DNA from: Haloglomus salinum
GTDB taxonomy: Archaea > Halobacteriota > Halobacteria > Halobacteriales > Haloarculaceae
NCBI RefSeq assembly: GCF_024298825.1
Contig: NZ_CP101153.1
Span: forward strand, 3,348,001-3,412,000
Reading direction: 5' to 3'
DNA: 64,000 nucleotides
Shown here: positions 6,764 through 10,699 of the stretch, one piece after another
Layout: every line of letters begins with the position of its first letter
How positions within the stretch are numbered: the first letter of the stretch is position 1
The notes under the pieces: generated by a model
The model's input: only the letters and a program-made list of their open reading frames with translations
What the model was told of the DNA's origin: nothing
Database searches by the model: none
Translations under genes and position numbers: made by a program

Positions 6764-8062
6764 TCAGTCGTCCGCGGGCGTCCGCGCGCCCTCGGACCGC
6801 TCGGTCGCCGACCGGACGGGTTCGGCGAAGCAGTAGACCGTCTCCGCCGCGGTCACCTCCACCTCCAAGAAATCGCCGGGTTCGACGCCGTGGTCGGAGG
6901 CGTTCTGGACGATGACCTGTCGATAGGCCGGGTCGCGGCACTTCACTGAGTCGCCGGTCCCCTGCTCGACACAGAGGACGCGCCGGCGCTGGCCGACCAT
7001 CTCCCGGTGCGCTTCGAGGACGACCCCCCGTTTCAGTTCGCTCATCGCCTTCGAGCGCTCCTTCTTGATGGTCCCGCCGAGCCCCTTCAGGTCCGCGGCG
7101 TCCGTGCCCGGGCGCTTCGAGAACCGTGTGACGTTGACCTTCTCGGGCCGTATCTCCCGGAGTAACTCCATCGACTGCTCGTGGTCGGCCTCGTCCTCGG
7201 TGGGGAAGCCGACGATGAAGTCCGTCGAGAGGGTCCAGTGGTCCAGTCGGTCGTCGAAGGTCTCCACGATGTCGCGGAACTTCTCGACGCGGTGCTGGCG
7301 GCGCATCTCCTCGAGTACCTCGTCGCTCCCGGACTGGACGGGCAGATGGATGAAGTCGTACAGCTCCTCGTTGCGCGCGAACACGTCGGCGAGTTCCTCG
7401 CGGATGCCGTGGACGCCGCCGGGGTTGGCCATCCCCACGCGGACGCGGAACTCGCCCTCGATGTCGCAGATGCGGTCGAGCAGCTCCGGGAGCTTGCGCT
7501 CGCCCTCGTCCCAGCCGTAGACGCCGGTGTCCTGGCCGGTGACGCGGAGTTCCTTCGCGCCCGCGTGGACCAGCGCCTCGGCCTTCCGGACGTTCTCCGC
7601 GACGCTCGGGCTATCGATGCGTCCGGTCGCGAACTTCGTGATGCAGTACGAGCAGTTGCTCATGCACCCCCGCGCGATGGGGAGGATGCCGACCACGCCG
7701 TCGAGGACGGGTTCGGCGTCCGGCGTCGTCGTCGGGCACTCGCCGTTCGTGACCGCTGTCGGGACCTCCTCCCAGTGGAGGACCTGCGCGTCGATATCCG
7801 CGTCCGCGAACTCCTCGCCCTGTGCCAGCGCCATGCAGCCGGTGACGATGAGGTCCGCCACCTCGGATTCGAGTTCCTCGGCCCGCCGGAGCATGTTGCG
7901 CTCCGTCTTCTCGACGACCGTACAGGTGTTGAGGATGGCCACGTCCGCCTCGTCGGGGCCGTCGACGGGGTGGTGGCCGGCGTCGCGGAGTCGCCGCTCG
8001 ATCTCGCGGCTCTCCCCCCGGTTGGACGTACACCCGTACGTCTCGATGTGGTAGCGGGCCAT
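6764..8062 (-). CDS. tRNA t6A37 C2-methylthiotransferase (radical SAM)
   Basis: 432-residue MiaB-like methylthiotransferase of the archaeal/eukaryotic (CDKAL1, e-MtaB) branch, which converts t6A at position 37 of tRNA to ms2t6A. The UPF0004 domain has its three Cys (YGCTSN, NTCTVV, VTGCMA), the radical SAM core the CxxxCxxC motif GCMSNCSYC, and the C-terminus a TRAM-type domain (residues about 355-420) that binds tRNA. Length is normal. It starts at ATG 8062. A gene-free 500-base stretch lies upstream. Confidence 0.92.
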   Translation of the reverse strand: MARYHIETYGCTSNRGESREIERRLRDAGHHPVDGPDEADVAILNTCTVVEKTERNMLRRAEELESEVADLIVTGCMALAQGEEFADADIDAQVLHWEEVPTAVTNGECPTTTPDAEPVLDGVVGILPIARGCMSNCSYCITKFATGRIDSPSVAENVRKAEALVHAGAKELRVTGQDTGVYGWDEGERKLPELLDRICDIEGEFRVRVGMANPGGVHGIREELADVFARNEELYDFIHLPVQSGSDEVLEEMRRQHRVEKFRDIVETFDDRLDHWTLSTDFIVGFPTEDEADHEQSMELLREIRPEKVNVTRFSKRPGTDAADLKGLGGTIKKERSKAMSELKRGVVLEAHREMVGQRRRVLCVEQGTGDSVKCRDPAYRQVIVQNASDHGVEPGDFLEVEVTAAETVYCFAEPVRSATERSEGARTPADD

Positions 8063-8313
8063 CGGTTCGTGTTGTGGGGGATTGCGGGTGGGTCAGCAAA
8101 AGGCCACGGGTTCGGTAGCGGGTGTGGGCTGGGTCTCGTGGCAGTGGGTTCTGGCGTGTGTCCGGTCCCGCTTACTCTCACTGTGACGATGACATCACCG
8201 ATGGGGACCGTTACGAAGCCCTCGCGCTTCGAGTCCGCCAGGGCCGCATACCCGTCAGTCGGGTCCGTGAGCCTCGTGCCTCCCCAGCCGCCTGCGATGC
8301 TCGCGTTGCTGTC

Positions 8314-8406
8314 GTCGGACTACGTCCGACTGCAAGCGGGACGGAGTCCCGCTCTGTCGCCGAAAATCGGAGATTTTCGAGATCACGAGAGAGCGGAGCT
8401 CTCTCG
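8314..8406. repeat. Four consecutive perfect triloop hairpins
   Basis: Four perfect inverted repeats, each with a 3-base loop closed by C-G: GTCGGAC-TAC-GTCCGAC (8314-8330), GCGGGAC-GGA-GTCCCGC (8336-8352), CGAAAATC-GGA-GATTTTCG (8361-8379), CGAGAGAGC-GGA-GCTCTCTCG (8386-8406). The stems differ completely in sequence but the apex C-GGA-G is constant in three of them; the first reads C-GTA-G on the other strand. All therefore fit C(GNA)G, a triloop known to be exceptionally stable in DNA. Confidence 0.9.
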
Positions 8407-8440
8407 GACGACGCGTCTCGGCCCTCGCGCGCTTAGAGAC

Positions 8441-8499
8441 GGCCGACGACAGCCCGGGGGCTCGCGGCATGAAGCCGCTCGCGGGGGCTGTCGTCGGCC
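8441..8499. repeat. Long inverted repeat, 15-bp perfect outer stem
   Basis: GGCCGACGACAGCCC (8441-8455) pairs exactly with GGGCTGTCGTCGGCC (8485-8499). An inner stem GCGGC/GCCGC (8464-8468 and 8474-8478) closes on the loop ATGAA. It sits 61 bases downstream of the SDR gene that ends at 8561 and could be its transcription terminator or a structured RNA. Confidence 0.85.
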
Positions 8500-8560
8500 G
8501 CCAGCGCGCGCCGGTTGGACTGACGTGGGTCGGGTCGCTTCGTAGCTTGTTGCGCCGTCG

Positions 8561-9364
8561 CTACGTGCTCCGGAGACTCCCACCGTCCACGGGCAGCGCG
8601 GTCCCGTTCACGTACGACGACGCCGGGCTGGAGAGCCAGGCCACCGCCTCGCCCAGCTCCTCGGGCCGACCCATCCGCTCGAGGGGGATGCCCTCGCTCC
8701 AGGACTCGCGGCCCTCGTCGTAGTCGGCGAACTCGCCACGCTCGACGGATTGCTCGATGAGGTCGCCGATGCGGTCCGTCTCGTGGGCGCCCGGGAGGAC
8801 CGCGTTCACCCGGACCTCGGGTGCGAACTCGCGGGCCTGGGTCTTCATCAGGCCGATGACCGCCCGCCGGACGCTGTTCGAGAGGACGAGGCCGTCGATG
8901 ACCTCCTGCACGGAGCGGGAGGTGATGTTGACGATGGTGCTGGCGTCGACAGCGTCCGTCGCGGCCTCTGCGAGGTGCGGGTACGCCGCCCGTGTCGTCC
9001 AGACCGCGGACATGACGAGCAGGTCGTACGCGCGATACCAGTCGCCGTCGTCGGTGTCGAGGAACGGCCCCGACGGCGGGCCACCGGCCGAGGTCACGAC
9101 GTGGTCGAGGCGGCCGAACTCGTCGACGGTACGCTCGACGAACCCCTCGACGGCCTCCTTCTCGGTGATGTCTGCCTCTACCGCGAGCACGTCGCCGTCC
9201 CCGGCCGCGCGCAACGCCTCACGGGCGTCGTCGAGGTGGTCCGCCGTCCGGCCACAGACCGCCACGTCAGCGCCCGCCGCAGCGAGGGCGAGGGCGCTCG
9301 CGCGCCCGAGGCCGGCGCTCCCTGCGGTCACCAGTGCTGCGTTCCCATCGAGTGCGAGGTCCAT
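8561..9364 (-). CDS. SDR-family protein lacking the catalytic Tyr-Lys pair
   Basis: 267-residue Rossmann-fold short-chain dehydrogenase homologue. The N-terminal nucleotide motif is TAGSAGLG (usual TGxxxGxG with Gly replaced by Ala), the NAG-like segment is TSAGG, and the C-terminus has the family's VNGTALPVDGG. Where active members have YxxxK, this one reads SNSVR (Tyr to Ser, Lys to Arg), although the preceding Ser (NITSRS) is kept. The hydride-transfer chemistry of classical SDRs is therefore doubtful; an atypical active site or a binding role is possible. Start at ATG 9364 (MDLALDGNAALVTA) is standard for the family. Usually annotated as SDR oxidoreductase. Confidence 0.8.
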   Translation of the reverse strand: MDLALDGNAALVTAGSAGLGRASALALAAAGADVAVCGRTADHLDDAREALRAAGDGDVLAVEADITEKEAVEGFVERTVDEFGRLDHVVTSAGGPPSGPFLDTDDGDWYRAYDLLVMSAVWTTRAAYPHLAEAATDAVDASTIVNITSRSVQEVIDGLVLSNSVRRAVIGLMKTQAREFAPEVRVNAVLPGAHETDRIGDLIEQSVERGEFADYDEGRESWSEGIPLERMGRPEELGEAVAWLSSPASSYVNGTALPVDGGSLRST

Positions 9365-9409: not shown

Positions 9410-10699
9410 CTACGCACGCTCGACGCCGTGGAAGGTGACCAGCAGCCCGCCGGCCTCGCTCTCCCCGAGTTCGACGGCCCAGTCGTGGGCCTCGGCGATC
9501 TCCTTGACGATGAACAGGCCCAGGCCCGTGCCGTCACTCTGGGTGCTGTACCCCGCGTCGAGCGCCTGCTCGAGGAGGTCGGAGTCCATGCCCGGCCCGT
9601 CGTCGGCGACGTGGAGGCGGTCGTCGTCGAGCCAGACGCGAACGGTGACGGTCGCGGACACGCCCCCGTCGCTCGCGGTGACCGACTGGGTGCCCTCGCT
9701 GGTTCCGTGCTCGACGGCGTTCCGGTAGAGGTTCTCGAAGACGTGGAGGAGTCGGGTGTGGTCCGACCGGATGCGCCCGAGGTCGCCGAGCTCGAGCTCG
9801 GCGTCGCCGGTCGGGACGTGGCGCCACGCCTCCAGCGCCACGCGCTCGACATCGACACCCTCCGGGTCCTCGATGGTCTGACTGCCGCGGGCCAGCACCA
9901 GCATCTCCTCGATGATCTCGTCCATCCGGTCCAGCGCCTCCTCGATGTCCGCTGCGTGAGGGACCTCCGTCTCGTCCCGTGCGATGTCGAGGTATCCCTG
10001 CGCGATACCCAGCGGGTTCCGGAGGTCGTGGCTCACGATGCTGGCGAACGCCTCGAGGTGTTCGTTGCGCCGCTCCAGCTCTCGCCGCCGCCGCTGTCGC
10101 TCCGTGATATCCGTGTAGATGAGGTAGCCGCTGGTCACCTCCTCACCCTGGAGGGCGCCGATGCCCCGGAGACGGAACACGCGCTGCTCGTCCTCGCTGT
10201 CGCTTGCGAGCTGGCCGGTCACCTCGACGTCGAGGGTCTCACCGGCCCGGAGCTCGTTCAGGAGGTCGGTCAGCTCGTCGGTATCGTGGGGCGGGACCGG
10301 CAGCTCCGTCAGCAGCGACCCGACGGCCGTCGTCGAGTTGACGCCGAACGCGTCGGCGAAGCGACCGTTCGTCCGGCGCACCACCGAGCCCTCGTCGGTG
10401 AAGGCCACCTCGACGGCCGGGTCGACCGCGTTCTCGAACAGCGAGGGCGCATCCGTGGCCGAGCGGTCGAGCCGGCGGACCCGGAGCCGGTTGCGCAACG
10501 CCCGGGCGGCAAGCGACAGTGGCGACTCGTGTGTCGAGGCGATGTGGTCACACACCTCCAGCGCCTCGTCGACGGCGTAGTCGCTTTGCTGGCCGAGGTC
10601 CACAGCCACGACCGCCTCCTCGACCACCTCTCGTGCCCGCCGGTAGCCGACCGTCTCGCTCAGCCCGGTCACCAGTTCGCCGAAGTCGACCCTGCTCAT
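9410..10699 (-). CDS. PAS-domain sensor histidine kinase
   Basis: 429-residue cytoplasmic two-component kinase without membrane segments. Residues 1-95 are helical; a PAS domain follows (about 85-200, ending LIYTDITERQRRRRELERRN); the HisKA domain carries the phospho-acceptor His in SIVSHDLRNPLG; the ATPase domain has N box NLYRNAVEHG, G1 DDGPGM and G2 GTGLGLFIV. All catalytic boxes are intact. Its ATGA start overlaps the stop of the FIST-domain gene by 4 bases, so the two are translationally coupled and probably form one signalling unit. No response regulator is adjacent, as is common in haloarchaea. Confidence 0.93.
   Translation of the reverse strand: MSRVDFGELVTGLSETVGYRRAREVVEEAVVAVDLGQQSDYAVDEALEVCDHIASTHESPLSLAARALRNRLRVRRLDRSATDAPSLFENAVDPAVEVAFTDEGSVVRRTNGRFADAFGVNSTTAVGSLLTELPVPPHDTDELTDLLNELRAGETLDVEVTGQLASDSEDEQRVFRLRGIGALQGEEVTSGYLIYTDITERQRRRRELERRNEHLEAFASIVSHDLRNPLGIAQGYLDIARDETEVPHAADIEEALDRMDEIIEEMLVLARGSQTIEDPEGVDVERVALEAWRHVPTGDAELELGDLGRIRSDHTRLLHVFENLYRNAVEHGTSEGTQSVTASDGGVSATVTVRVWLDDDRLHVADDGPGMDSDLLEQALDAGYSTQSDGTGLGLFIVKEIAEAHDWAVELGESEAGGLLVTFHGVERA

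Follow-up and report, generated by a model that had tools for sequence, protein, structure and literature searches.

Four short, perfect hairpins stand side by side within less than 100 bp of the Haloglomus salinum genome, in the spacer between two genes read from the same strand, and the question they raise is whether they form one structure with a common function or belong to something that has been carried into this site. Our analysis covered the whole 64,000-nucleotide stretch of DNA in which they lie, referred to here as the window (Table 1). The original prediction, made from the letters of this stretch, was of a single array of C(GNA)G triloop hairpins at 8314-8406 with unrelated stems of 7, 7, 8 and 9 bp. 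A hairpin search confirmed all four as perfect, and the stem lengths are as given for hairpins 1, 3 and 4, but hairpin 2 has an extra A-T pair and thus a stem of 8 bp. The window contains 17 perfect triloop hairpins with a stem of at least 7 bp compared with a mean of 11.8 (sd 3.4) over 200 dinucleotide shuffles, and nine with a stem of at least 8 bp compared with 3.5. The greatest number found within 100 bp is four, and this was equalled in none of the 200 shuffles, where the maximum was one (161 times), two (38 times) or three (once). Folded as single-stranded DNA, the hairpin segment has z scores of -4.8 on the + strand and -5.2 on the - strand, with 0 of 200 shuffles as good on either.

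Table 1. Positions of the hairpins, repeats and flanking genes in the window
Feature	Positions	Strand	Description
Hairpin 1	8314-8330	.	GTCGGAC-TAC; stem 7 bp, loop TAC, or GTA on the opposite strand
Hairpin 2	8335-8353	.	AGCGGGAC-GGA; stem 8 bp, loop GGA
Hairpin 3	8361-8379	.	CGAAAATC-GGA; stem 8 bp, loop GGA
Hairpin 4	8386-8406	.	CGAGAGAGC-GGA; stem 9 bp, loop GGA
Double-hairpin repeat B	8311-8356	+	GTCGTCGG-hp1-CCGACTGC-NN-hp2-YCTG
Double-hairpin element C	8354-8413	+	Abuts B or overlaps it by a few bases
Mosaic host repeat	8221-8525	+	Copies genome-wide, most aligned ones without 8305-8411
Long imperfect hairpin of host repeat	8440-8500	.	Perfect 16-bp outer stem; in some copies and not others
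MiaB-like tRNA methylthiotransferase gene (UPF0004, Radical SAM, TRAM)	6764-8062	-	Hairpins upstream of the gene
Short-chain dehydrogenase gene	8561-9364	-	Hairpins downstream of the stop codon

The limits 8314-8406 are correct for the hairpins themselves but truncate a unit that extends over about 8311-8413 and itself lies within a repeat of about 8221-8525. The hairpins are not one array. Hairpins 1 and 2 make up one double-hairpin repeat (repeat B) and hairpins 3 and 4 another (element C), both inside a mosaic repeat, for which a BLAST search with 8240-8560 gave 63 matches in the window's own genome. The conserved flank of this host repeat begins at 8221, and its 8-bp terminal inverted repeat is formed by CGTCAGTC at 8253 and GACTGACG ending at 8525. 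It is built from modules, with flank and core at 8221-8304, a variable insert holding all four hairpins at 8305-8411 and a further module at 8412-8525, and most of its aligned copies contain other or shorter inserts. At the orthologous site of H. halophilum, the nearest relative as judged by the MiaB protein (96%), the host repeat is present and a different short insert replaces the four hairpins; in H. irregulare the repeat is absent from the orthologous site, where divergence of the spacer prevents the exact ends of the window copy from being placed. At another locus (L015, 9598-9900), a 301-bp part of a host repeat is absent from H. halophilum and its ends share the short repeat GAGGAGCGCA, as if it had been lost by a repeat-mediated deletion.

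Repeat B also occurs alone elsewhere, at 96% identity. Its pattern has 12 matches in the own genome, every one of them a double hairpin and two of them within a histidine kinase gene; counts for B refer to this genome, as the class-wide pattern matches many chance coding sites and its reversed control matches too. Histidine kinase genes were seen to hold tandem B-like triloop hairpin pairs in frame, where they are read as VEHGST..SRTQS repeats, the sites being in the window at 9410-10699 (about 9702), in L043 at about 9930-10062 and in L049. The histidine kinase of the window is missing 26 residues of this VEHGST..SRTQS kind that are present in H. halophilum. Further double-hairpin families exist in the same genome, with arms ATCAGAACGC paired with CGTGGAATCGC and GATTGTCGGC paired with GCTGGCGGC (L016, L020, L037, L256 and L230).

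Element C belongs to a family of haloarchaeal elements about 54-66 bp long, made of two inverted half-units, each of the form GTSGTYCG-hairpin-CGTS'A, that are joined at AT. Its length is 54 bp inside tnpA and, counted with the outer G and C, 56-68 bp at the places listed, and it stands alone in many genera. The window copy is slightly off this frame, with GTCGCCG and AGATCA instead of GTCGTYCG and TGATCA, and is not among the three strict matches of its own genome. Positions 8353-8414, used as a query, matched 184 of the 292 class genomes, a figure for presence and not for copy number, few candidates per genome being scored. A pattern of the frame only (GTSGTYCG, GTSATSAC and CGRACSAC, with free interiors) is present in 196 of the 292 class genomes and in 66 of 78 genera, and the same pattern reversed, as a control, gave 0 matches in all 292. 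A search of 246 phylum genomes gave 34 matches to the frame, all within the same order, and the 203 phylum genomes outside that order (G315-G517) have none.

Since this pattern fixes the frame and leaves the stems free, apart from the first two arm bases (CG), which are part of the anchors or adjoin them, it does not by itself require perfect stems. Typing was carried out on the 70 distinct elements among the matches listed, which come from 29 of the 196 genomes after identical strings were dropped. Of the 140 hairpins in these elements 125 are free of mismatches, and 1242 of 1262 pairs are intact, with 34 different arm sequences. All 130 of their triloops are closed by C-G, and 94 are C(GNA)G (57) or its complement (37), leaving 36 of other kinds.

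That the stems change in a paired manner is clear from 48 copies of C collected by BLAST, in which 98.4% of cells pair and both sides have changed in 53 cells compared with 14.0 in shuffles (0/500) and at most nine in slid controls. In the flanking S and S' pairs of the same copies both members vary (25:21 and 41:4), with one copy unpaired. In 49 fetched elements, read by a script that set no constraint on S, every one of the 98 half-units has complementary S and S'; these loci were not a random draw, and many of them came from a pattern permitting only C or G at S. One listed element, in G006, violates the rule in one half. The ends of C, GTSGTYC and GRACSAC, are fully complementary only if both S fit.

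C(GNA)G triloops are unusually stable in DNA; the DNA energy parameters used here give an identical score to all 64 triloops. An excess of this loop in intergenic hairpins, which the original prediction had put forward as its test, was found in 876 kb of the genome (44 stretches chosen irrespective of repeats). Perfect triloop hairpins with a stem of at least 8 bp number 97 in these stretches against 45.5 expected. With C(GNA)G counted on either strand and 79.7% of the sequence masked as coding by a rough ORF rule, the loop is present in 15 of 32 noncoding hairpins versus 1 of 65 coding ones (Fisher p 5e-8; 3.1% in shuffles), and in 12 of 29 noncoding hairpins after repeated stems are removed. 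The intergenic hairpins of the Haloglomus genome are genuinely rich in C(GNA)G loops. The accompanying view, that selection or a mechanism acts on structure and loop in hairpins with unrelated stems, is supported in part: the loop class is real, but the view as stated finds no support in the homologues of each hairpin, which keep the stem, or change it pairwise, while the loop varies. GGA, GAA, TTC, AGA, AAA and CAA occur at the position of hairpin 3, and GAA, TTC, GGA, TCC, TTT and others at that of hairpin 4, in a comparison that includes a few B/C cross-pairs or elements read twice and serves only for the range of loops. In homologous hairpins at L009, L181 and other loci the loop flips between GNA and TNC with the stem unchanged, as if the tip of the hairpin had been inverted. 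A GGA loop could also bring to mind titration of a CsrA-type protein, which had not been expected in archaea; rightly so, for no CsrA gene was found in the genome by a search that detected CsrA of E. coli, B. subtilis and T. maritima as controls, and this candidate was rejected.

C lies inside tnpA in Haloferax and Natrinema plasmids and at two genome loci, and a comparison of tnpA genes set five filled copies beside five related copies without exactly the same 54 columns. No target duplication accompanies this insertion, as judged from filled versus empty copies at one site type. Two of the five empty sites share the sequence TCG|CT with the filled copies, and the other three deviate from it by a base or two. 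In the IS200/IS605 tnpA genes that contain C (L193, L195 and L219), the reading frame is open through the element in one plasmid and is broken by a stop in the element in two.

Some insertion sites lie within other palindromes. At the fetched loci, which are not a random draw, palindrome arms of at least 6 at the junction were found at 8 of 48 insertion sites (L037, L266, L273, L275, L276, L279, L291 and L293), compared with 2.9% at random sites and 3.7% at random G^C sites; by the same arm test the other 40 are outside palindromes. Five of the eight (L266, L275, L276, L279 and L293) have one type of host palindrome in common, and in L273 the insertion is at the apex of a B-type hairpin. Of 47 element loci, again fetched and not randomly drawn, 10 have genes of the IS605 type in the 3 kb retrieved, versus 0 of 134 control pieces, a count that covers loci with the frame read on the + strand. 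The 15 TnpA/TnpB loci of the own genome contain no such hairpins, and an origin of the hairpins as end palindromes of the genome's own IS605 transposons was rejected on that ground. A phage origin was likewise rejected, there being no match in 50,697 phage records.

It is likely, in our judgement, that B and C are two small non-coding repeats that are mobile and sit inside a larger dispersed one, and that C preserves the frame, the C-G closure and for the most part the triloop, with exchangeable stems and joint changes of S and S'. For C the comparisons show dispersal, a constant frame with free stems, covariation and, at one site type, insertion that leaves no target duplication, together with an excess of sites in other palindromes and near IS200/IS605 genes. 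The element may be processed as folded single-stranded DNA or as a cruciform, in which case its mover would read shape and frame rather than stem sequence; such reading could keep the stems perfect and favour C(GNA)G loops. In the window the element is probably selfish or neutral, without a role for the neighbouring genes. The mobility is putative, being deduced from sequence comparison, and dispersal could alternatively have come from recombination between copies. A bolder proposal, which we offer tentatively, is that C may be a shape-defined mobile element of about 54-66 bp, haloarchaea-wide and with no need of a resident Y1 transposase. Its recognition would depend on the frame and on a pair of C-G-closed triloop hairpins whose stems could have any sequence, and it would tend to insert at the apex of other hairpins, hairpins into hairpins. 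Among 116 genomes compared for Y1 transposase and element, C is present in 62 of 81 with a Y1 match and in 24 of 35 without, and the mean number of elements per genome is 2.1 and 2.5, respectively. The two counts are weakly correlated (Spearman 0.20, p 0.03), and the genome with 17 elements has no Y1 match.

These counts bear directly on the suggestion that C consists of REPIN-like doublets mobilised in trans by an IS200/IS605-family Y1 (HUH) transposase, for which GTSG at the 5' foot of each hairpin would act as guide and TS'AT as cleavage site. Such a mechanism would agree with the inverted pair of hairpin units and the conserved tetranucleotide near the foot, with the lack of target duplication in tnpA and with the association with IS605-type genes, and the covariation of S and S' resembles the guide and cleavage-site contacts described in the available text of PMC6006769. 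We nevertheless regard it as unlikely, because more than half of the genomes without a Y1 match still carry the element, the correlation of counts is weak, the TnpA/TnpB loci of the own genome are without such hairpins, and targeting can account for the IS605 association. Moreover, only IS-type subclass 1.1 is reported for archaea in the same part of that source.

Two further explanations were weighed. In one there would be no mobile unit: template switching in replication might make and keep perfect palindromes, with recombination and short-repeat deletion spreading the repeats, and loop flips and stem changes that remain paired would agree with it, as would the 301-bp presence or absence between two species with a short repeat shared by its ends. 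This accounts neither for an unchanging frame with different stems inside it across 66 of 78 genera nor for the clean 54-bp insertion in tnpA, and we think it quite improbable. That the hairpins act as RNA, whether as terminators, as processing or stability signals of neighbouring transcripts or as a structured RNA, appears very improbable, even though the RNA fold of the segment is strong on both strands (z -4.2 and -5.7), the location is between two same-strand genes, and stem covariation is as compatible with RNA as with DNA. Against it are the occurrence of both orientations in the same host site, the position inside tnpA and the nesting in other repeats, as well as GNA-type triloops and GNA/TNC flips at the same place. 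An Rfam family is also absent, a search of the window giving 0 matches at the gathering score.

If B and C are mobile repeats, as we consider likely, they can be compared with several published kinds. REPINs, which are REP doublets, share with C the inverted pair of hairpin units, paired changes, a proposed clover fold and a scattered intergenic distribution (PMC3116915, as far as its accessible text goes), and the two inverted hairpin units of C likewise form a clover. The GTSG at the hairpin foot of C resembles the REP guide as described in the available portions of PMC6006769 and PMC3116915. However, REPIN ends are described in the latter as strongly conserved within a family and RAYT-associated, whereas the stems of C vary and a resident Y1/RAYT transposase is not required for its presence. 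The GTAG/CGTC REPs are also small tagged palindromes, but in the text of PMC3733652 that was available they are bacterial single stems of 20-40 bp. PATEs, according to the sections of PMC3119063 consulted, are non-coding, palindromic, haloarchaeal and free of target duplication, as C is. They differ in being without inverted ends, which C has, and in sharing near-terminal palindromes with IS605 transposons, whereas these hairpins are absent from the TnpA/TnpB loci of the own genome.

The short mobile repeats of haloarchaea are called enigmatic in the same sections of PMC3119063, their mover being unknown. One of them, SMR-A of Haloquadratum walsbyi, is described there as a repeat of about 110 bp in one species with no known transposase. 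Like C it is short and non-coding, with inverted ends and no target duplication. The terminal inverted repeats of SMR-A are given as unrelated to known transposons, and SMR-A is found inside IS605-type elements and inserted in near-terminal palindromes of PATEs and IS605 elements; of the C loci 10 of 47 are near IS605-type genes and 8 of 48 in palindromes, the majority being elsewhere. SMR-A differs in its length, about 110 bp as against about 54-66 bp, and C differs in having two internal triloop hairpins, exchangeable stems and a covarying flank pair, a comparison made with the description of SMR-A (HqIRS42, HqIRS43 and HqIRS55) in the accessible text. In a literature search with four of the hairpin strings, all of the matches listed were through the 9-base TCGAACGAC alone, and a prior description beyond the open-licence literature searched is possible. 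If it does move, C is very small for a mobile element. Its constant frame, free stems, covarying flank pair and clean empty site make the question of the mover testable, as they show which bases must matter and supply substrates. By this analogy the nearest published kind would be the SMR repeats of Haloquadratum, likewise without a known mover in the text available, and C is best filed under the short mobile repeats, as a variant of them.
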